Origin: Burkholderiaceae bacterium
GTDB taxonomy: Bacteria > Pseudomonadota > Gammaproteobacteria > Burkholderiales > Burkholderiaceae_E
Direction of reading: 5' to 3'
Assembly (NCBI GenBank): GCA_900299025.1
Contig: OMIE01000067.1
Span: 1-64,000 of the forward strand
DNA length: 64,000 nt
Made by a program: the position numbers and the translations under genes. Shown piece after piece: positions 25,443-35,605 of the stretch (the first letter of the stretch is position 1; each line of letters starts with the position of its first letter). Under the pieces are notes generated by a model that was not told the DNA's origin, did not search any database, and saw only the letters and a program-made list of their open reading frames with translations.

Positions 25443-27170
25443 CTAAGATCCAGCCGGGAGCTGCGCTTCAAGCACTAGCCTAAGTTGTCGCTTGAGTAAC
25501 TTGCCGTTTGCATTGCGCGGTAAGGCCTCTGGGTACAGCAGGATCGACTCGGGTACTTTGTAATCGGCTAGCTTTTGTCTGCAATGCTTGGTGATTGCCT
25601 CAATTACCTCCGATTGCTTAGCAAGGTTATCGCTTTGAAGATCGGGGGCGTAGATCACTGCATGGACTCGCTCGCCTAAAACCGGGCAAGGTCGTGAGAT
25701 GACGGCAGCTTCGATAATGCCGCTATAGCTCATCAAACAATGCTCAACCTCAACTGAAAATATTTTATAACCACCACGGTTAATCATATCTTTGAGTCGG
25801 TCGTGGATATAAACAAAGCCTTCAGCATCGATGGACCCAAGGTCGCCAGAATGCCAAAAGCCATCCGTAAAGTTAGCGCCGTTAGCCTCAGGATTATTCC
25901 AGTAGCCAGGAATCACCATCGGGCCTCGTATCCACAGTTCGCCGCTTTCACCGGCAGGAAGGACTTCACCTCGGTCGTTGACCACCCTCACCTCGGCACA
26001 TGGCAAGACAAAACCAACAGAATCGGCATGAGCGCGCGTATGAATGGCTGGCATGATGGTTGTAGGCGAGCATGTCTCAGTGGCGCCGTAGGCGTTCATT
26101 AGCTGTAATCCTGGCAGGCGGGAGGCCAATTCATCGATGGTCGACACCGGCATGGGAGCGCCGCCATAGCCGCCGACCCGCCAGTGACTTAAATCAAGCT
26201 GCTCGAAGTGATCATCCATGAGGCATAACTTGTACATGGCTGGAACCAGGATGCTGTACTCAACCTTCTCCCGAGCCGCAAGCTTGAGATAGTCTGCAGC
26301 TTTGAATTGCGACATGATGATGCTTGTGCCCGCGCAGCCGATCACGCTGGCGATATTTGCGATCAATCCAGTGACATGACTTGCTGGTACAGCAAGTATG
26401 GAGCGCACGCCGTCGCGAAGCGGCATGCAATACTGAAAATGCATAATCGAATGTATAACATTTAGATGACTGAGCATGGCACCTTTGGGCTTGCCGGTGG
26501 TCCCTGAGGTGTAAAGGATGAATGCACAAGCTTCCTCGTTGACCTCAGCAGGCGCGATATCCTCGGCAAGTAGGTCTTGCTCACGGCCTTCGCTCAAAGC
26601 ATCAAGGTGCTGATCAGTGTGAAAACGAAAGTCCGAGCTAGCGGCATCGTTGAGACCATATACAAACGATAGGGCATGCAGCGTTGGCTCGTTGGCAAGA
26701 TAATTGCGAAGGTCTTCGATGACCTGGCTTAAGCAATCATCGATAAGCACAGCGCTGGCCTCGCATTGATGAATGATGTAAATCAGGCCACTAGCTTGTT
26801 CGCGAATGCTGACTGGAACCGCGATGGCGGCAATACGTTGTAGCGCTAGCATGATCACAACAAACTCGATGCGGTTAGCAATTTGCATCACCACCCGATC
26901 CCCAGCTTTGATGCCGATGGCTTGAAAGCGTCGCGCTGACCGCATGACGAGTCTGCGCAAATCCTGATAGCTGATGCGATGTGCATCGTGCACAAGCGCC
27001 TCGCGATGCGGATATAAACGACAGGCGCGTTCAAATAAACGATCAAGCGATTGGGCTCGATCACCAAAGCAATTCACTACCCGATCCCCAAAATGGGATT
27101 CAGGGCGAATCGGGGGAAGGGCACAGCTACTCCAGTGCGTCATCGTTGCGGTTTGCATTGCTTTACTCAT
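25443..27170 (-). CDS. Acyl-CoA synthetase (AMP-forming)
   Basis: A 575-residue adenylate-forming ligase. The P-loop FILYTSGTTGKPKGAMLSH, GGYGGAPMP, the A5 motif MNAYGATETCSPT, A7/A8 (FWHSGDLGSIDAEGFVYIHDRLKDMINRGGYK region) and the C-terminal catalytic Lys in NANGKLLKR are all present. It activates a carboxylic acid to an acyl-AMP and then an acyl-CoA in the cytoplasm. It lies 54 bases downstream of the ammonia-lyase/hydrolase fusion gene on the same strand, so it may activate a carboxylate formed by that pathway. The acid cannot be inferred. Start ATG 27170; a further in-frame ATG lies at 27143. Confidence 0.9.
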   Translation of the reverse strand: MSKAMQTATMTHWSSCALPPIRPESHFGDRVVNCFGDRAQSLDRLFERACRLYPHREALVHDAHRISYQDLRRLVMRSARRFQAIGIKAGDRVVMQIANRIEFVVIMLALQRIAAIAVPVSIREQASGLIYIIHQCEASAVLIDDCLSQVIEDLRNYLANEPTLHALSFVYGLNDAASSDFRFHTDQHLDALSEGREQDLLAEDIAPAEVNEEACAFILYTSGTTGKPKGAMLSHLNVIHSIMHFQYCMPLRDGVRSILAVPASHVTGLIANIASVIGCAGTSIIMSQFKAADYLKLAAREKVEYSILVPAMYKLCLMDDHFEQLDLSHWRVGGYGGAPMPVSTIDELASRLPGLQLMNAYGATETCSPTTIMPAIHTRAHADSVGFVLPCAEVRVVNDRGEVLPAGESGELWIRGPMVIPGYWNNPEANGANFTDGFWHSGDLGSIDAEGFVYIHDRLKDMINRGGYKIFSVEVEHCLMSYSGIIEAAVISRPCPVLGERVHAVIYAPDLQSDNLAKQSEVIEAITKHCRQKLADYKVPESILLYPEALPRNANGKLLKRQLRLVLEAQLPAGS

Positions 27171-27224
27171 GCACTTAGTCGGTGATTCATGGTTGGGTTG
27201 GAATGCGGATGAGGTTCGCCGATC

Positions 27225-29375
27225 TCAGTCAACCTCACAGAGCTCGCGCAGGAGCGCGTAGAGTAATTGCAAACCTGCATCAATAGCTTCAGCGTGGCTG
27301 TAATCGGCAGGGTTATGACTGAGTCCTCTAGCGCTCGATATAACAATCATGGCAGTCGGGCATACGCGCGCGAGGATTTGGGCATCATGGCCTGCCCCAT
27401 AGATGATTCGCTGATAAGTAAGTCGATGTGCTTGCGCTAAACGTTCTATGCTGTTGATCAAATCAAGATCGAATGCCACAGGTATTGGGGTCGTACCAGC
27501 ATGGTTAGACTGACCAACGATTTCCAGGCCTTGCCAGGAAATGCCTTCAACCCCTTCAACCCCTTGAACCCCTTGAACCACGCCAATTTGACAGCCCGCC
27601 TGCTCGAGAATCGGCCCGTGTGCCATATGCAGTTCAATGAATGCTTTCGCTTTGATGTGACCGGGCTTGCATGGGCCTGCATAGCCGATCCTGGCGAGTT
27701 CTTCGCCGAGTAATGAGCCGTCGACGCCCACAACGCGAAGGGCTTGTTCGAGGGCCATGGCTTGAGCAAAGACAAGAGAACCCAGCATGTCAGGTCCATA
27801 GCGTGCACCCTCGTCATTGGTGAAGGCGCACACGACTAAGGACCGGCGCGGCTTGATCCCCGCCGCCTGCATGCACCGAATGATCTCTAAGCCAGCGAGA
27901 ACGCCAAGACATCCGTCATCGCGACCAACTGTTCTCACGGTGTCGATCTGAGATCCAGTCATGATCGGGTCGAGTTCGGGTTCGGCACCTTCAAAGATGC
28001 CGAATAGATTGCCGATCTGGTCGATTTGTACATTTAAATCGAGGGACTTCATCACGTCGACAAGCCAATCCCGGCCGATCCGATCTTGATCGGTTAGGGC
28101 AAGTCTGGCGCATGCCCCATCGTCTTGTAAGCCGATCTGGGCAAGTGCATGAAGCTGCTCTAAAAGATAGTCTGTTCTAGGTTGGGGAGGCTGGTGGATG
28201 ATTGCTCGATAGATCTCCGGATCAGTATTTCCTTCACTACCAATAATCAGAACACGTGAATGAGCGTCAAGACCAAGCACTTGGGCAAGATGGGGCATCG
28301 CCTGACTGGCTTGCAAGAGTGCGAGACCTGCTGCCCCGGTCTCGCCTGAAATCACCGAGGGGTCACTGCTCTCGCCTCGGTGGAGCGATCTCATCGCTTC
28401 GCGGACATCGTCCTCGCAGACCACACATGCATCGTCCGCGGCACGGCTCAATATCTGCCAGGCAATCGGTGATACTTCGCCGCAAGCAAGCCCCGCCATG
28501 ATGGTTTGCAGGGAGCCCGTGACCGCAACAGGATGCCCCGCGCTGATCGATTGAAAGTAGCAATCAGCAAGCATAGGCTCAACGAGAACAAACCGAGGTC
28601 GCTTTGTTCCCCAGCGATACCAGAAGTAAGCGCATAGCGAGGCTGCGAGTGCGCCAACGCCAGCTTGAACAACGACATGGCTTGGTGCTTCAGCCAACTG
28701 ATCACAAATCTCCTGCGCCATGAGTCCGTAGCCGTGCATCACTTTACACGGTATATCGATATAGCCTTGATAGCTTGTATCGGAAACCACATGCCAACAA
28801 TTCGCTTCAGCCTGACGTTGAGCCTCGCGGACCGAATCGTCATAATTGCCTTTAACCCGGGAAACTTTGGCTCCAAAGGCCGCTATAGCCTCGCACCGCG
28901 CTTGGCTGACCGTCTCATGAACAAAGATGACGCAGCTCGCGCCGAAAAGCTCAGCGCCCCATGCGACCGATCGACCGTGATTGCCGTCTGTGGCGCAACA
29001 TACCGTGATAGCCTTAGCTGCTTTTCTGGTTGCTTGATCAGTCCAAAGTAAAGAACCATCGCCTAATTGCAGCTTTTCTCGAAGTAGTGCATAAACAGCA
29101 TAAGCACCACCAAGTGCTTTAAAGCTGCCGAGGCCAAATCGGGCCGATTCATCCTTGTAAAAGACTTCTCCAAGTCCTAACCGCCCGGCCTGTCCCGAAA
29201 GATGATGTAAAGGGCTTGGCGTGTAAGCAGGCCAAGTCTTAATGGTTTGAGCGGCGACTGCGAAGCCCTGAGGGTTGATGTGCTCGCTAGGCAGGTCGTC
29301 AGCAATCAGTCGATTGGCAACAAAGCCTGCCCTGGGACTTCGAAAGCCCGCTCTTTCCAGCACGGCCAAACTCAC
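27225..29375 (-). CDS. Fusion: diaminopropionate ammonia-lyase plus degenerate M20-type amidohydrolase
   Basis: One 716-codon frame starting at GTG 29375. Residues about 20-395 are a PLP enzyme of the diaminopropionate ammonia-lyase family: KDESARFGLGSFKALGGAYAV with PLP Lys86, DGNHGRSVAWGAELFG and the phosphate-binding QAGVGALA. It would convert 2,3-diaminopropionate to pyruvate and ammonia. Residues about 401-716 match N-carbamoyl-amino-acid hydrolase/allantoate amidohydrolase (GNLFGIFEG, GVLAGLEIIR, NHAGTTP, GAGHDAQ, LSHNPAD). The hydrolase half looks impaired: the metal His of GSHLD is Gln476, HIEQGP reads HMAHGP, and about 100 residues of the lid/dimerisation domain between NHAGTTP (624-630) and GAGHDA (660-665) are absent. 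E. coli keeps ygeX and ygeY, of the same two families, as separate adjacent genes. A Bug gene lies upstream and an acyl-CoA ligase downstream. Confidence 0.85.
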   Translation of the reverse strand: MSLAVLERAGFRSPRAGFVANRLIADDLPSEHINPQGFAVAAQTIKTWPAYTPSPLHHLSGQAGRLGLGEVFYKDESARFGLGSFKALGGAYAVYALLREKLQLGDGSLLWTDQATRKAAKAITVCCATDGNHGRSVAWGAELFGASCVIFVHETVSQARCEAIAAFGAKVSRVKGNYDDSVREAQRQAEANCWHVVSDTSYQGYIDIPCKVMHGYGLMAQEICDQLAEAPSHVVVQAGVGALAASLCAYFWYRWGTKRPRFVLVEPMLADCYFQSISAGHPVAVTGSLQTIMAGLACGEVSPIAWQILSRAADDACVVCEDDVREAMRSLHRGESSDPSVISGETGAAGLALLQASQAMPHLAQVLGLDAHSRVLIIGSEGNTDPEIYRAIIHQPPQPRTDYLLEQLHALAQIGLQDDGACARLALTDQDRIGRDWLVDVMKSLDLNVQIDQIGNLFGIFEGAEPELDPIMTGSQIDTVRTVGRDDGCLGVLAGLEIIRCMQAAGIKPRRSLVVCAFTNDEGARYGPDMLGSLVFAQAMALEQALRVVGVDGSLLGEELARIGYAGPCKPGHIKAKAFIELHMAHGPILEQAGCQIGVVQGVQGVEGVEGISWQGLEIVGQSNHAGTTPIPVAFDLDLINSIERLAQAHRLTYQRIIYGAGHDAQILARVCPTAMIVISSARGLSHNPADYSHAEAIDAGLQLLYALLRELCEVD
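27543..27578 (-). repeat. Four tandem 9-base repeats inside the fusion gene
   Basis: On the plus strand the unit CCTTCAACC/CCTTGAACC occurs four times in a row, two of each version. It encodes VQG-VQG-VEG-VEG (residues about 600-611) just after GVV in the hydrolase half, where relatives have a single VQG. It is an in-frame expansion that could vary in copy number. Confidence 0.8.
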
Positions 29376-29415: not shown

Positions 29416-30432
29416 TTAGTCGAGTTTGATACCAAGCTTGCCTGCTATGTCAATCCAGACTGCGCTTTCTTCCTTCCAGCGTTTGCGACTTTCTTCGAGT
29501 GCTGTTGGCTTATTGGGAATCGCAAAGGCATCACGAATTGCAGCCATTCGCGGCGTTTCAGAAGCTTCTTGAATCGCTTCAGCCATTTTGACCACGATGT
29601 CTTGCGGTGTTGCCGCCGGTGCTACAAATGGAATCCATCCCTCGAGACCATAAACCGGCGCGGAAAAGCCCTGCTCGATGAACGTGGGTAGCTGAGGCAG
29701 CTTTGGGCAACGTAGATTACCGATGGCAGCGATCGCACGAATGCTTCCCTTTCCTAGATAATTATTGATGCCAAGAAAACTGCCCATCGCCGCTTGAACC
29801 TGGCCCGTACTGGCATCAACCCACATCGGTGTTTCACCGCGATAGTGAACTGGCGTAAGCTTCGCCGAAGCACGTTCGTTTAAGTCATTAATCACCATAT
29901 GCGGCCAGGATCCTGCTCCGTAAGTGCCATAAGCGGCGGGTTTGTTGCGGCTCATCTCGACAAATTCCCTCACGTCCTTCACACCGAGCGAGGAAGGTAC
30001 ACCCATAATCAGAGCGCCACTGGGAAAGAGCGAAATTGGCGTAAAGTCACGCTCGCCCTGATAAGGCATTTTCGTATAAAGCACCTTCGCATGCCACATG
30101 GGGGTGGAGGTTGTGATCAGAAATGTATAACCATCTGCTGGTGCTTTCGCAACCGCATCAGCGCCGATGAGACCGCCCGCGCCGGGCCGGTTTTCGACGA
30201 CGAATGATTGACCGAATTTTTTGGAAAAAAACTCAGCATAGGCTCTCGCATAAGAGTCGGTGAGCCCCCCTGGCGGAAAGTTACAGACAATTTTCACCGT
30301 CTGCTTGCTCGGCCAGCTCGCTTGAGCAAAGACCAGAGGACTAAGAGAAGCGCTAGCGATTGCGCAAGTACCGGAAAGTCCCTGCTTTAGGATGGCGCGG
30401 CGTCGGTTAAAGTCTCGATGGTCCATTTGCAT
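29416..30432 (-). CDS. Bug/TctC-family periplasmic solute-binding protein
   Basis: A 338-residue protein from ATG 30432, preceded by AAGGGAGAC. The N-terminus has a twin-arginine-like NRRRAILKQG followed by a hydrophobic segment ending VFAQA. The mature part shows IVCNFPPGGLTDSYAR, FVVENRPGAGGLIGADAVAKAPADGYTFL and LPTFIEQGF, typical of Bug receptors. It lies 40 bases upstream of the ammonia-lyase fusion gene and probably shares its transcript, so its ligand may be the amino-acid-like substrate of that pathway. No TctA/TctB partner is adjacent. Confidence 0.88.
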   Translation of the reverse strand: MQMDHRDFNRRRAILKQGLSGTCAIASASLSPLVFAQASWPSKQTVKIVCNFPPGGLTDSYARAYAEFFSKKFGQSFVVENRPGAGGLIGADAVAKAPADGYTFLITTSTPMWHAKVLYTKMPYQGERDFTPISLFPSGALIMGVPSSLGVKDVREFVEMSRNKPAAYGTYGAGSWPHMVINDLNERASAKLTPVHYRGETPMWVDASTGQVQAAMGSFLGINNYLGKGSIRAIAAIGNLRCPKLPQLPTFIEQGFSAPVYGLEGWIPFVAPAATPQDIVVKMAEAIQEASETPRMAAIRDAFAIPNKPTALEESRKRWKEESAVWIDIAGKLGIKLD

Positions 30433-30489: not shown

Positions 30490-31704
30490 ATGTTTTCAAA
30501 ATTGCATGAAGGCCTAGCCCGACGATCCTTTGATGCCGAAGCCCAAGGGCCGCTTGCCGATATTCGTGTCCTTGACCTGTCTCGATTGGTGGCAGGCAAT
30601 ATGCTTAGTCATGTTCTTGCCGATTTTGGTGCAGATGTGATTAAGGTCGAGCATCCGGAGGGGGGCGATGACTTACGAAAATGGCGTGAGCAGGGCCATG
30701 CTTTGCACTGGAAGCTATACGGGCGCAATAAACGTTCCTGGGCCCTGGACTTGCGTGAGCCGCAATCGCTCGACCGGCTCATAAGCATACTGCCCCACTG
30801 TCAAGTCTTGATTGAGAACTTTGTGCCCGGAGGCTTAGAAAAGTTAGGCTTGGAACCAGAGCGTCTTTGGACCGTAAATCCTGCACTAATCTTGGTGAGG
30901 ATCTCGGGCTGGGGGCAGGACGGGCCTTATGCCAAGCGTCCAGGCTTCGGTACGCTTGTTGAAGCCATGTCGGGCTTCGCCTACCTCAATGGATTTCCTG
31001 ATCGCCCACCCTCGCTGCCGCCGCTTGCGCTGGCAGATATGGTCGCTGGTCTGTATGGCGCATCAGCCGTGCAAACCGCCTTGCGCGTCGCTGAGAAAAC
31101 CGGCAAAGGCCAGTGCCTCGATCTATCCTTATTCGAGCCTATCCTGTCTGTGATCGCCTCAGAGGCCGCCAAATCTGCGCTCACAGGCCTTGCAACCCTA
31201 AGAGCCGGCAATCAGTCGAGCCACACCGCACCGCGCAATGTGTATCGCTGTGCAGATGGCGGCTTTCTTGCGCTTTCAGGATCGATGCAGTCGATGGCGA
31301 TGCGCTTGTTTGATGCTATCGATCGATCAGATTTAAAGACCGATCCGCGATTTATATCAAATGACGCTCGTGTCGAGCATCGCGACGCACTCGATGCGAT
31401 TCTGTCTGATTTTATAGGCTCAAAAACACTTGCAGAAAACCTAGCGCTATTCGAGCAGGCCAAGGTTACGGCCGGGCCCGTGTGTTCGGTGCTTGATCTG
31501 CTTGATCACCCCTATGTTGCGGGCCGAGAAAGCCTGGTGCGATTACCCGATGATGACTTGGGGGAGGTGGTCATGCATGAGGTCTTGCCACGTTTATCGC
31601 AAACACCAGGGGGGTTTCGAAGACCTGCCCCTACGCTTGGTCAGCATACGCAAGAAATTGAACAATGGCTTGAGTCGCTTGCTAATCAAAAGGAAGACAA
31701 ATGA
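30490..31704 (+). CDS. CaiB/BaiF (class III) CoA-transferase
   Basis: A 404-residue class III CoA-transferase. ADIRVLDLSRLVAGNMLSHVLADFGADVIKVEHP opens the fold, with NKRSWALDL, LIENFVPGGLEKLGL, ISGWGQDGPYAKRPGFG and the catalytic Asp in LALADMVAG. It moves CoA from a donor thioester to a free acid. The gene overlaps the CitE-type lyase gene by ATGA at 31701-31704. That pairing is known for succinyl-CoA:citramalate-type transferases followed by citramalyl-CoA or malyl-CoA lyases, so a small hydroxy-dicarboxylate is the likely acceptor (inference). No clear Shine-Dalgarno precedes ATG 30490, so the start is less certain. Confidence 0.9.
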   Translation: MFSKLHEGLARRSFDAEAQGPLADIRVLDLSRLVAGNMLSHVLADFGADVIKVEHPEGGDDLRKWREQGHALHWKLYGRNKRSWALDLREPQSLDRLISILPHCQVLIENFVPGGLEKLGLEPERLWTVNPALILVRISGWGQDGPYAKRPGFGTLVEAMSGFAYLNGFPDRPPSLPPLALADMVAGLYGASAVQTALRVAEKTGKGQCLDLSLFEPILSVIASEAAKSALTGLATLRAGNQSSHTAPRNVYRCADGGFLALSGSMQSMAMRLFDAIDRSDLKTDPRFISNDARVEHRDALDAILSDFIGSKTLAENLALFEQAKVTAGPVCSVLDLLDHPYVAGRESLVRLPDDDLGEVVMHEVLPRLSQTPGGFRRPAPTLGQHTQEIEQWLESLANQKEDK

Positions 31705-32711
31705 TGGAAGCAACACGAAACACGCCGGCGAATTCAACACAGAATGGACCGCTAATTCCAGCGCATAAGGCACAGCCGATTTCAGAGCATACGGCAATGC
31801 CGATTTGGCGATCAATTCTTTTTGTACCTGCAAGCAGTCCTCGCTTTATAGAAAGTGCAACCCGGCAAGCTGCTGATGTCTTACAAATCGATCTGGAAGA
31901 TAGTGTTTCACCCTCGGACAAGGCGTCTGCAAGGCTATCGGTACCGAAGATAGCCCAAGGGTTTACACAAGCTGGGAAGGAGGTGATTGTTCGTGTCAAT
32001 CGACCCTGGAGGCTGCTGCTTCGCGATTTGGAGGCTTCGGTCTGCGGGGCGGTTTCTGCGATCTCCCTCCCGAAGGTGCCTGATGCGGGCTTTATCAAGT
32101 CAGTTGCTGAGGTCTTGACTGAGCTTGAGTTTGAGCGGGGACTGCTTCAAGGCCACACAAGACTGATTGCGATGATTGAGGATCCCGAAGGCTTGCATCA
32201 TATTGATGCAATTGCTCAATCTCACACCCGCATGCTCGGATTGATCGTCGGAGCAGAGGATTTGGCCGTTTCAATGGGTATGGCGGTCAATGAAGATTCG
32301 CTCTATACCCCGAATATCATGGCACTAATGGCAGCGCGTCGTGCTGGACTTATGCCACTGGGGTTCATTGGTAGCGTTGCCGATTACAAAGATCAGAACG
32401 CCTTCCGCAAACGTATCGAACGTGCTCGGGCGCTAGGCTTTGAGGGAGCATTCTGCGTTCACCCTTCACAGGTGGCGATTATTAACGAAGGATTCGCGCC
32501 GCAGCCTGACGAAGTCGAACACGCTACGGGCCTTATGCTAGCCTTTGAAGAAGCTCAAAAGCAACGAAAAGCGGCCTTTGCGTACAAGGGCCGCATGGTG
32601 GATCTACCTGTCGTCGAGCAAGCAAGAAGGCTGCTTGCTAAGCATGAAAAGCTCAAGCAGCTTGAAAGATCCAGGGCCGCTCACTTTTCATCTTTTCCTG
32701 ATAAGCCTTGA
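31701..32711 (+). CDS. CitE-like CoA-ester lyase (HpcH/HpaI aldolase family)
   Basis: A 336-residue TIM-barrel lyase preceded by AAAGGAAG. The first ~35 residues are low in conservation. The core shows RSILFVPASSPRFIESA, LQIDLEDSVSPSDK, VIVRVNRPW, ISLPKVPDAG, IAMIEDPEGLHH, GLIVGAEDLAVSMGM and FCVHPSQVAIINEGF, including the acidic residues that bind Mg2+ and the Arg of the active site. Members cleave citramalyl-CoA, malyl-CoA or 3-hydroxy-3-methylglutaryl-type thioesters into acetyl- or propionyl-CoA plus a 2-oxo acid. It is translationally coupled to the CoA-transferase, whose product it probably cleaves. Its 3' end overlaps the convergent leuD-like gene by 59 bases. Confidence 0.88.
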   Translation: MMEATRNTPANSTQNGPLIPAHKAQPISEHTAMPIWRSILFVPASSPRFIESATRQAADVLQIDLEDSVSPSDKASARLSVPKIAQGFTQAGKEVIVRVNRPWRLLLRDLEASVCGAVSAISLPKVPDAGFIKSVAEVLTELEFERGLLQGHTRLIAMIEDPEGLHHIDAIAQSHTRMLGLIVGAEDLAVSMGMAVNEDSLYTPNIMALMAARRAGLMPLGFIGSVADYKDQNAFRKRIERARALGFEGAFCVHPSQVAIINEGFAPQPDEVEHATGLMLAFEEAQKQRKAAFAYKGRMVDLPVVEQARRLLAKHEKLKQLERSRAAHFSSFPDKP

Positions 32712-33288
32712 TGCGCTCCCGCCGCGAGAGCGTAAGTTCAATCTCGTCAAGGCCTTCAAGCAGGGCTTTACGGATCGGGGCATCGATCGAAAATGATTTC
32801 TTGCTTCCATCGGGTAATTGCACTTGGTTGAGCATAAGATCCACGCTGAAAGGGCCCTGATCGGCCATGGCTTGCATCGCTTGAATCTCATCTGCGCTGA
32901 ACTGGAGTACCAATAAACCGTTCTGAAAACAATTGGAACGAAAGATATCGCCAAAACTTGAACCGATCAGGCATCGCACACCTAGCTCCTGGATCGCCCA
33001 TACAGCCATTTCTCGCGACGATCCACAGCCGAAGTTAGCGGCTGTTATGAGTATTTTCGCTTCACGAAATGGTTTCTGATTCAGGATGAAGTCTGGGTTT
33101 TCCTCACCGTTGTTCCGATAGCGAAGGGGCTCGAAGGCCCATGGGCCAAGCTGGCCTCGGGGAAGTTGTGAGAGTCTTTCTATTCTTATAATGATATCGG
33201 TATCAAGATTGATGAGATCGATTGGAGCAGCAAGGCTTTCGAGCTTGGTAAATGGCTTGCGTCGGAAATCTAGATCACTAGGTACCAT
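32653..33288 (-). CDS. LeuD-type hydro-lyase small subunit
   Basis: A 211-residue swivel-domain protein of the aconitase superfamily: NLDTDIIIRIERL, FILNQKPFREAKILITAANFGCGSSREMAVWAIQELGVRCLIGSSFGDIFRSNCFQNGLL and a C-terminal LDEIELTLSRRERIKAYQEK, as in 3-isopropylmalate dehydratase small subunits. It completes the hydro-lyase with the LeuC-type protein encoded 20 bases upstream. Here it is the last gene of a transporter-lyase operon with no leuB or leuA, so the pair probably acts on another diacid such as citraconate, mesaconate or dimethylmaleate rather than in leucine synthesis (inference). It overlaps the convergent CitE-like gene by 59 bases. Confidence 0.88.
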   Translation of the reverse strand: MVPSDLDFRRKPFTKLESLAAPIDLINLDTDIIIRIERLSQLPRGQLGPWAFEPLRYRNNGEENPDFILNQKPFREAKILITAANFGCGSSREMAVWAIQELGVRCLIGSSFGDIFRSNCFQNGLLVLQFSADEIQAMQAMADQGPFSVDLMLNQVQLPDGSKKSFSIDAPIRKALLEGLDEIELTLSRRERIKAYQEKMKSERPWIFQAA

Positions 33289-33308
33289 TGATGAATACTT
33301 CTTGGCGC

Positions 33309-34727
33309 TCAGGTAGCTATAACACCGGCAAGCGCACTTCGCACCGCTGTGTAAGGGCTTGCGAGATGGGTTCGTGCGCCAGGCCCCTGACGCCCGACAA
33401 AATTGCGGTTTGACGTCGACACCGAGCGCTCTTTAGGCTTGAGTTGTTCTCCATTGGCACCTACGCAGAGCGAGCAACCCGGCTCACGCCACTGGAATCC
33501 CGCGTCTTTAAAACGTCGGTCAAGCCCTTCGGCCTGGGCTTGTTGAGCCACTTCATAAGATCCCGGTACAACCCAAGCCTCAACCCGATTAGCAACCCGA
33601 CCCGATCCAATGGCTTCGGCCGCTCGCCTGAGATCAGATAATCGTCCGTTGGTGCAAGAACCAATGAACACTCGGTCAATTGGGGTTCCAGCGATCGCTG
33701 CGCCTGCGCGAAGGCCCATATAGTCAAGCGTATCTTGGATGGCCTGAGCACGTGATGCGTCGGAAGCATGGGCCGGATCAGGAATGCGTCCATCGATCGC
33801 TATACATTGTTCAGGGGAAGTACCCCAGGTAATTTGTGGCCTGATCGTTGCGATGTTGAGGGTTTCATAACGATCAAAACGGGCCTGCTTATCTGAGCTG
33901 AGGTCTTGCCAGTGCTTGATGGCCTGCTCCCAATGTGGACCCTTTGGTGAAAATGGTCGATTTTCTAGATATGAGAAGGTTGTATCGTCTGGAGCAATCA
34001 GACCTATGCGTGCTCCCCATTCTATCGACATATTGCATAGCGTCATCCGTGCCTCCATGGGCATCGCCGCAATGACATCACCCACATATTCAACAGCAAA
34101 ACCACTGCCCGCTGAGGCGCCGAGTTGGCTAATCAACCAGAGAATTAAGTCTTTAGCTTCAACGCCCGGGGCAAGGTGGCCCTCGAAACGCAGCTGCATT
34201 TGTTTGGGTTTTTTCTGAACCAAACATTGCGTGGCCATGACGTGGACGATTTCACTGGCGCCAATGCCAAAGGCCAGTGCGCCCATGGCGCCGTGGGTTG
34301 CGGTGTGGCTATCGCCACAGACAATCAGCGTGCCCGGGAGACTCAAGCCAAGTTCCGGCCCAATCACATGGACGATCCCCTGGCCTGGCTTGCCGACATC
34401 AAATAGCCGGATACTTCGTTTGGCGGTGCCGAGTCGCAGGCCATCGATGAGCTTATTAGCCCAATCGTGTTCGCTACCCATTCTTCCTGGTGCAGACGAA
34501 ACCACATGGTCGGGAACCGCAAACGTGAGCTCGGGAGCCGCAATCTCGAGGCCTCGCTTTTCGAGCTCGTAGAACGCGCCTGGCCCACCCAGATCATGAA
34601 CCAAGTGGCGATCCACATGTAACAGCGAGTAGCCGTCACCTAAGTCCTCCACGATATGATCGTTCCAAATACGATCAATGATCGATAGACCAGAGCGTTT
34701 GCCAGGTTGAGATTCGGATGCGTTCAT
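33309..34727 (-). CDS. LeuC-type hydro-lyase large subunit (4Fe-4S)
   Basis: About 472 residues from ATG 34727, which overlaps the upstream lyase stop (ATGA). Aconitase-superfamily segments are complete: LLHVDRHLVHDLGGPGAFYELEKRG, VCGDSHTATHGAMGALAFGIGASEI, VFIGSCTNGRLSDLRRAA and the CxxC region in EPGCSLCVGANGEQ, giving the three cluster-binding Cys. With the small subunit it should add or remove water on an unsaturated dicarboxylate. Family members include isopropylmalate dehydratase, citraconase and dimethylmaleate hydratase. Operon context with a C-C lyase and an importer favours a catabolic diacid hydratase. Confidence 0.9.
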   Translation of the reverse strand: MNASESQPGKRSGLSIIDRIWNDHIVEDLGDGYSLLHVDRHLVHDLGGPGAFYELEKRGLEIAAPELTFAVPDHVVSSAPGRMGSEHDWANKLIDGLRLGTAKRSIRLFDVGKPGQGIVHVIGPELGLSLPGTLIVCGDSHTATHGAMGALAFGIGASEIVHVMATQCLVQKKPKQMQLRFEGHLAPGVEAKDLILWLISQLGASAGSGFAVEYVGDVIAAMPMEARMTLCNMSIEWGARIGLIAPDDTTFSYLENRPFSPKGPHWEQAIKHWQDLSSDKQARFDRYETLNIATIRPQITWGTSPEQCIAIDGRIPDPAHASDASRAQAIQDTLDYMGLRAGAAIAGTPIDRVFIGSCTNGRLSDLRRAAEAIGSGRVANRVEAWVVPGSYEVAQQAQAEGLDRRFKDAGFQWREPGCSLCVGANGEQLKPKERSVSTSNRNFVGRQGPGARTHLASPYTAVRSALAGVIAT

Positions 34728-35605
34728 GATTCTACAAATTGCTTCTCGAAAGCCCAAACTTCATCAAAACCCACAAGTTCGTGAAGTTGTGCCATGTTGT
34801 ATGCGGCGACAGGCGATTGGCTCGTGCTCCCGGCATTGAAAAGGTGTCTGAAATTCGCTTCCACAGCGGCACAGGCAACAGCCATTCCCGCTGACGGATA
34901 AATCGCCAAATCAAAGCCGTAGCGAATCAAATCTGCACGCTCAATCACGGGTGATTTGCCGCTTGGCACCATATTCGCGATTAGCCAGGCGTCGATACTC
35001 GATCCGACACGTTCAAATTCCTCAGCCGATTCGGGTGCTTCAATAAATATAATGTCAGCACCTGCCTTCGCGAACGCCTTTCCACGAGCAATCGCTTCAT
35101 CCAAACCAAGTCCTGTTCTTGCGTCGGTTCGAGCGATGATTAAGGTGTCATCGCGGCGTCTTGCATCAACAGCTACTTCGATACGGCGCACAGCGTCTTT
35201 AAGGGGGACGACACGCCGATTAGGAGTATGGCCACACTTCTTCGGCATTTCCTGATCTTCAATTTGAATCGCTTGCACACCAGCAGCCTCGTAGCCTCGG
35301 ATGGTATGCCTTATGTTGAGCAAGCCGCCAAAACCAGTGTCTGCGTCGGCGATCAAGGGTTTTGATGAACCCTCTGCGATACATCTTGCGCGGCTCACCA
35401 TATCGGTATAACTGACCAAACCCGCATCTGCCAGGCCTAGATAAGATCCTGAGATGCCGTAGCCTGTCATATACAAGGCCTCAAAAGGCAAACGATCGGC
35501 GATTCTTGTCGAAAACATATCGAACACACCAGGAGCGAGGATAAAGCGACCCTCAAGCAATTTGCGTCTAAGTTCTCCCGGGGTCGCTGCGATGCCATGT
35601 GTCAT
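34724..35605 (-). CDS. Isocitrate lyase/PEP-mutase superfamily C-C lyase
   Basis: A 293-residue TIM-barrel protein. FILAPGVFDMFSTRIADRL, ALYMTGYGISGSYLG, IADADTGFGG (metal Asp residues), QIEDQEMPKKCGH with the KKCGH loop Cys of true lyases, and IARTDARTG are visible. Relatives include 2-methylisocitrate lyase, 2,3-dimethylmalate lyase and oxaloacetate decarboxylase. It starts directly after the permease stop (TAA then ATG) and overlaps the LeuC-type gene, so uptake, hydration and cleavage are encoded in one run. The order hydratase plus this lyase matches the DmdAB-Dml step of nicotinate fermentation in Eubacterium barkeri, which makes a 2-methyl or 2,3-dimethylmalate-like substrate plausible but unproven. 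Confidence 0.87.
   Translation of the reverse strand: MTHGIAATPGELRRKLLEGRFILAPGVFDMFSTRIADRLPFEALYMTGYGISGSYLGLADAGLVSYTDMVSRARCIAEGSSKPLIADADTGFGGLLNIRHTIRGYEAAGVQAIQIEDQEMPKKCGHTPNRRVVPLKDAVRRIEVAVDARRRDDTLIIARTDARTGLGLDEAIARGKAFAKAGADIIFIEAPESAEEFERVGSSIDAWLIANMVPSGKSPVIERADLIRYGFDLAIYPSAGMAVACAAVEANFRHLFNAGSTSQSPVAAYNMAQLHELVGFDEVWAFEKQFVES

Follow-up and report, generated by a model that had tools for sequence, protein, structure and literature searches.

The fused gene and its lyase half

The window, that is, the whole 64,000-nucleotide stretch of DNA analyzed here, carries on its minus strand a gene that joins a diaminopropionate ammonia-lyase (DAL) to a hydrolase of the AllC-type hydantoinase/carbamoylase family. 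Neither stop nor frameshift interrupts the frame, and the lyase precedes the hydrolase, in agreement with the first-pass annotation, which had proposed a single unbroken fusion of 716 codons. The locus comprises the following features:

25443..27170 (-): downstream AMP-forming acyl-CoA ligase (PF00501)
27200..27233 (no strand): rearrangement point; a 9.55-kb cluster lies here in the relative G002 and on other contigs in the window genome
27225..29375 (-): fusion gene, 716 codons plus stop, GTG start, single open frame
27228..28166 (-): remnant hydantoinase/carbamoylase (M20, AllC type), residues 404-716; TIGR01879 in two stretches, PF01546 without PF07687
27482..27483 (-): junction of a 282-bp (94-codon) in-frame deletion, from alignment with G001 and G002, Pfam and mapping to AllC
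27486..27602 (-): lid stub, residues 592-630, predicted to be disordered (AlphaFold2, pLDDT <50)
27546..27563 (-): 18-bp in-frame expansion (six extra residues) beside the lost lid, from alignment with G001 and G002
27813..27815 (-): Asp521 replacing the catalytic-base Glu (AllC Glu126), from alignment
27948..27950 (-): Gln476 replacing a metal-ligand His (AllC His81), from alignment
28167..28187 (-): short linker, residues 397-403, the gap between the lyase and hydrolase family matches
28188..29375 (-): DAL half, residues 1-396; NF006058, and PDB 5ygr/4d9g by sequence and fold
28779-28781 (-): Asp199, mapped to YgeX D189
28986-28988 (-): Asp130, mapped to YgeX D120
29118-29120 (-): Schiff-base Lys86, mapped to YgeX K77
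29416..30432 (-): upstream gene for a TctC/Bug-type solute receptor (PF03401)

The window genome (G000) is a draft of 180 contigs, and the 282-bp deletion was seen in this one assembly. A search of its contigs with the fusion protein returned C67:27228-29375 as the best match and found no second or intact copy. The fusion as such is not confined to one assembly, being present also in two genomes of the same genus (G001 and G002).

Profile searches of the lyase half yielded scores above the cut-offs of NF006058 (467 versus 276 bits) and TIGR01747 (320 versus 274 bits). Sequence relatives in the PDB (5ygr, 4d9g) and the structure predicted with AlphaFold2, in which this half has a pLDDT of about 90, gave the same assignment. 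It shares with Escherichia coli YgeX 41% identity, the fold, the Schiff-base Lys and both Asp residues, and differs from YgeX-type DALs by a C-terminal extension of 300 residues and by missing the TIGR03528 equivalog cut-off (343 versus 532 bits). Lys86, Asp130, and Asp199 were invariant among 84 aligned relatives; in YgeX, Lys77 and Asp120 have been named as catalytic residues (PMC4000059). The complete-looking PLP ammonia-lyase with Lys86 read here by the first-pass annotation is thus upheld by the NF006058 score and by the retention of all catalytic residues. Judged from its sequence, this half is intact and can be expected to convert diaminopropionate to pyruvate.

Losses in the hydrolase half

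The family of the second half had also been named correctly, as a carbamoyl-amino-acid/allantoate amidohydrolase type, since TIGR01879 scored 251 bits over a cut-off of 204. This match was split into two stretches, and nearly all the family models listed likewise matched in two pieces. Sequence relatives in the PDB (5thw, 5tp4, 8apz) and the predicted structure agree on the assignment. What did not hold was the completeness attributed to this half. The Pfam search revealed no match to the dimerization domain PF07687 in the window protein, whereas this domain was found in the fusion proteins of G001 and G002 and of two genomes outside the genus, G075 and G413. The window genome has ten PF07687 matches, all of them on contigs other than that of the window. 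Alignment with G001 and G002, which have the missing stretch of 94 codons, placed its loss between residues 631 and 632; the stretch accounts for most of the lid/dimerization domain, including a conserved Arg (AllC Arg288).

In this family, as is established, the metal site (AllC numbering) is formed by H81, D92, E127, the His of ELHIEQG, and H382, with E126 as the catalytic base. Four of the five metal-site residues are kept in the window protein (Asp487, Glu522, His583, and His687), the exception being the H81 position, at which the 38 other aligned hydrolases and G002 all have His. Besides Gln476 and Asp521, the window protein has His586 at the position of AllC Gln193. H81, E126, Q193, and Arg288 were all invariant in those 38 hydrolases. 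Compared with the AllC/TIGR01879 family (PDB 5thw, 8apz, 1z2l), the window copy therefore shares the sequence family and the core fold and differs in having lost one metal ligand and most of the lid/dimerization domain; both are retained in the fused relatives G002, G075, and G413, as in the AllC family. In the AlphaFold2 model of the window protein a metal-site loop, like the lid stub, has a pLDDT below 50, and the region matching the stub is ordered in the predicted structure of the G001 fusion.

The two halves have also been under unequal constraint. Between G000 and G002, dN/dS was 0.13 for the lyase and 0.38 for the hydrolase, rising to 0.44 over residues 567-716; the hydrolase value is below 1 but pools both branches. 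The last part of the hydrolase showed no nonsynonymous difference between G001 and G002. At columns at least 90% conserved in the outgroups, 12 of 114 were changed in the hydrolase half of G000 and one in that of G002, versus none of 112 in the lyase half. Of the differences, 13 of 41 in the hydrolase fell at conserved columns versus 0 of 29 in the lyase (Fisher p = 0.0004). Both hydrolase indels are multiples of three. The open frame itself is weak evidence either way, because about 24% of the hydrolase halves simulated with 45 neutral changes also kept it open.

Relatives, origin, and surroundings of the fusion

The G002 fusion is intact, with the lid present and every metal ligand kept. That of G001 is nearly so: it spans 812 codons and keeps the lid, but the His-to-Gln and Glu-to-Asp replacements are already present. 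With the lid present in both relatives and every ligand retained in G002, the window copy would be a decayed derivative. The order of the losses is not firm, because the G001 gene (on contig C35 of that genome) is a mosaic, 96-100% like the window in its middle and 94-100% like G002 in its flanks, arising either from recombination or from an assembly chimera. Two G002 contigs overlap within the fusion gene, with three mismatches over 276 bases.

The first-pass annotation knew of no described example of such a fusion and had advised looking for others in databases. Within the literature accessible to search, we likewise found no described DAL fusion or bifunctional DAL apart from artificial tag fusions. 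Database searches retrieved the fusions of G001, G002, G075, and G413 and indicated that the arrangement is rare. Among the 80 loci of GTDB whose lyases are nearest, none was fused, and 37 had a hydrolase gene on the same strand, nearly always directly downstream; two genes are thus taken as the ancestral state. Searches through family, order, class, and phylum recovered G075 and G413 as the intact fusions beyond the genus, and more may exist, as the wider of these searches took samples and applied strict score limits. The G075 and G413 proteins, from different families of the order, are 67-75% identical across the two halves. In the lyase tree, G000, G001, and G002 on the one hand and G075 and G413 on the other fall into separate supported clades, and the unfused species G359 is nested within the latter. 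This topology rules out a single origin of all fusions, and on these phylogenies the fusion arose at least twice, yet is rare. The hydrolase tree, built by a quick method, is less decisive than that of the lyase.

Direct homologs of the two halves also occur unfused, mostly in this order, as a DAL–Zn-dependent hydrolase operon in rhizobia, Burkholderia, Alcaligenaceae, and others. Unlike the window locus, it consists of two genes, frequently accompanied by an Lrp/AsnC regulator and at times by a second, adjoining M20 aminoacylase. The pair is common on plasmids of rhizobia and Burkholderia and has the same companions there. Rhizobium leguminosarum pR132501 and Burkholderia vietnamiensis pBVIE01, for instance, carry the unfused pair with the Lrp/AsnC regulator, and a further amidohydrolase/M20-type gene lay near the pair in three of the four plasmid loci viewed. 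Literature searches on albizziine catabolism and on DAL with allantoate amidohydrolase or hydantoinase found no function for this operon.

The gene order around the fusion differs within the genus. The TctC/Bug-type receptor gene lies upstream in G001 and G002 as well, whereas the acyl-CoA ligase is a direct neighbor only in the window genome. In G002 (contig C3), fusion and ligase genes are separated by about 9.55 kb of a catabolic and peptide-transport cluster, giving the order fusion, Amidohydro_3 gene, amidase, nitrilase-family amidohydrolase, oligopeptide (Dpp)-type ABC transporter, and acyl-CoA ligase. Pieces of this cluster occur in the window genome at C113:10843-12316 and C58:1-3986, with DNA identity of 89-92%, and on C113 the cluster borders sequence for which none of the three remaining genomes of the genus gave a match. 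Either the fusion became separated from its probable pathway genes in the window genome or, as the less likely course, it was joined to them in the other genomes. In Zeimonas-type relatives the split pair has nitrilase and Dpp genes next to it, which suggests, though it does not prove the polarity, that linkage of the fusion to the cluster is the older state. On the upstream side, genes for a CoA-transferase III, an HpcH/CitE-type lyase, a LeuC/LeuD-like dehydratase pair, and a PrpB-like lyase adjoin at 30490-35605 of the window; this set looks like a catabolic route for branched dicarboxylic acids, possibly of the dimethylmalate or itaconate kind.

Likely chemistry and readings of the locus

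In E. coli, YgeY and YgeX together turn albizziin (3-ureido-2-aminopropionate) into pyruvate, with diaminopropionate as the intermediate (PMC12507026, 2025; PMC12990295). The ygeX-ygeY pair resembles the fusion in combining a DAL with an M20-clan hydrolase, and its chemistry is the likely one of the intact fusions. It differs in that YgeY belongs to another M20 branch, the two proteins are separate, and their genes are part of a uric acid cluster (reductive uric acid pathway). The first-pass annotation had named ygeX and ygeY as the E. coli counterparts; this is right for YgeX and wrong for YgeY, which gave no significant BLASTP match to the fusion of the window (best E 0.11) or to that of G001, and a weak one to that of G413 (E 4e-4). 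YgeY is thereby ruled out as the fused partner. Nor would a two-step conversion of an N-substituted diaminopropionate be a new activity, as had been suggested, since YgeY and YgeX, as separate proteins, have been shown to carry it out on albizziin (PMC12507026).

The intact fusions are guessed to perform the same two-step conversion because the hydantoinase/carbamoylase family removes carbamoyl groups. The most economical guess, by this analogy, is that their AllC-type domain performs the first step, on N-carbamoyl or possibly also N-acyl derivatives. It is possible, and we propose it only tentatively, that the intact fusions of G002, G075, and G413 are bifunctional enzymes that take N-carbamoyl-2,3-diaminopropionate (e.g., albizziin) directly to pyruvate by a YgeY-independent route, which would reveal the function of the widespread proteobacterial DAL/AllC-type operon. 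Two or more origins of the fusion tie DAL to the AllC-type hydrolase, and this tie suggests N-carbamoyl-diaminopropionates as the substrate class of the operon common in rhizobia and Burkholderia. These rare intact fusions are a more interesting object than the window copy.

As for the window gene, we consider it probable that it is an operon-derived fusion that now consists of a working lyase and a catalytically dead, decaying hydrolase half. The fusion, its losses, the intact relatives, and the unequal constraint are read from the sequence; what follows is the course of events that they would fit. A two-gene operon, with DAL followed by the AllC-type carbamoylase, would have become a single gene in the ancestor of the three species of the genus. 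The ancestral protein presumably decarbamoylated an N-carbamoyl-2,3-diaminopropionate, and its lyase half would have taken over the resulting diaminopropionate, yielding pyruvate and ammonia. In the lineage of the window genome the lyase half would then have been kept, while in the hydrolase a metal ligand and the catalytic-base Glu were replaced and the 94 residues with most of the lid and dimer interface were deleted, and the locus came to be separated from the amidohydrolase/amidase/transporter cluster. If this is true, the window copy shows the decay of a fusion after the loss of its pathway, and it carries a caution, namely that a second activity should not be concluded from an open frame and a family match.

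A channelled or regulated two-step route in the window genome, as the first-pass annotation envisaged, is very unlikely. A single chain does hold both enzyme families, and other genomes have intact versions, but the loss of the metal-ligand His, the catalytic-base Glu, the dimer interface, and the lid Arg, together with the unequal constraint on the two halves, leaves this reading next to no probability, and on the missing ligand, base, and lid we rejected an active bifunctional enzyme here. Retention of the lidless half as a non-catalytic pseudo-enzyme domain that stabilizes or regulates the lyase is unlikely, if the strongest of the competing explanations. It would account for 716 codons remaining open despite two in-frame indels and for a hydrolase core predicted to be folded, with most blocks at pLDDT 80-97. 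However, of roughly 33 attributable changes, 12 fell at conserved positions, which make up 38% of sites, as expected with no constraint; moreover, the lid stub is predicted to be disordered, and the lidless form is known here from one sequence. We regard as less probable still, and as quite improbable, that assembly or strain mixture produced the deletion and some of the other changes as artefacts and that the living organism has an intact fusion. The mosaic of window-like and G002-like sequence in G001 and the mismatches between the overlapping G002 contigs do indicate that these draft assemblies combine strains or copies. Against this explanation, a block of H-to-Q, Y-to-D, and E-to-D changes recurs in two separate assemblies (G000 and G001), the window genome has no second copy of the fusion, and divergence extends across the whole hydrolase half rather than being limited to the junction. 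A decaying, catalytically dead hydrolase half attached to a working lyase is hence the reading that we retain.

The window genome further encodes, at C97:31897-33105, a stand-alone hydrolase of full length from the same family, 40% identical to the fused half; it is also present in G001 and G002 and might cover the lost hydrolase activity.
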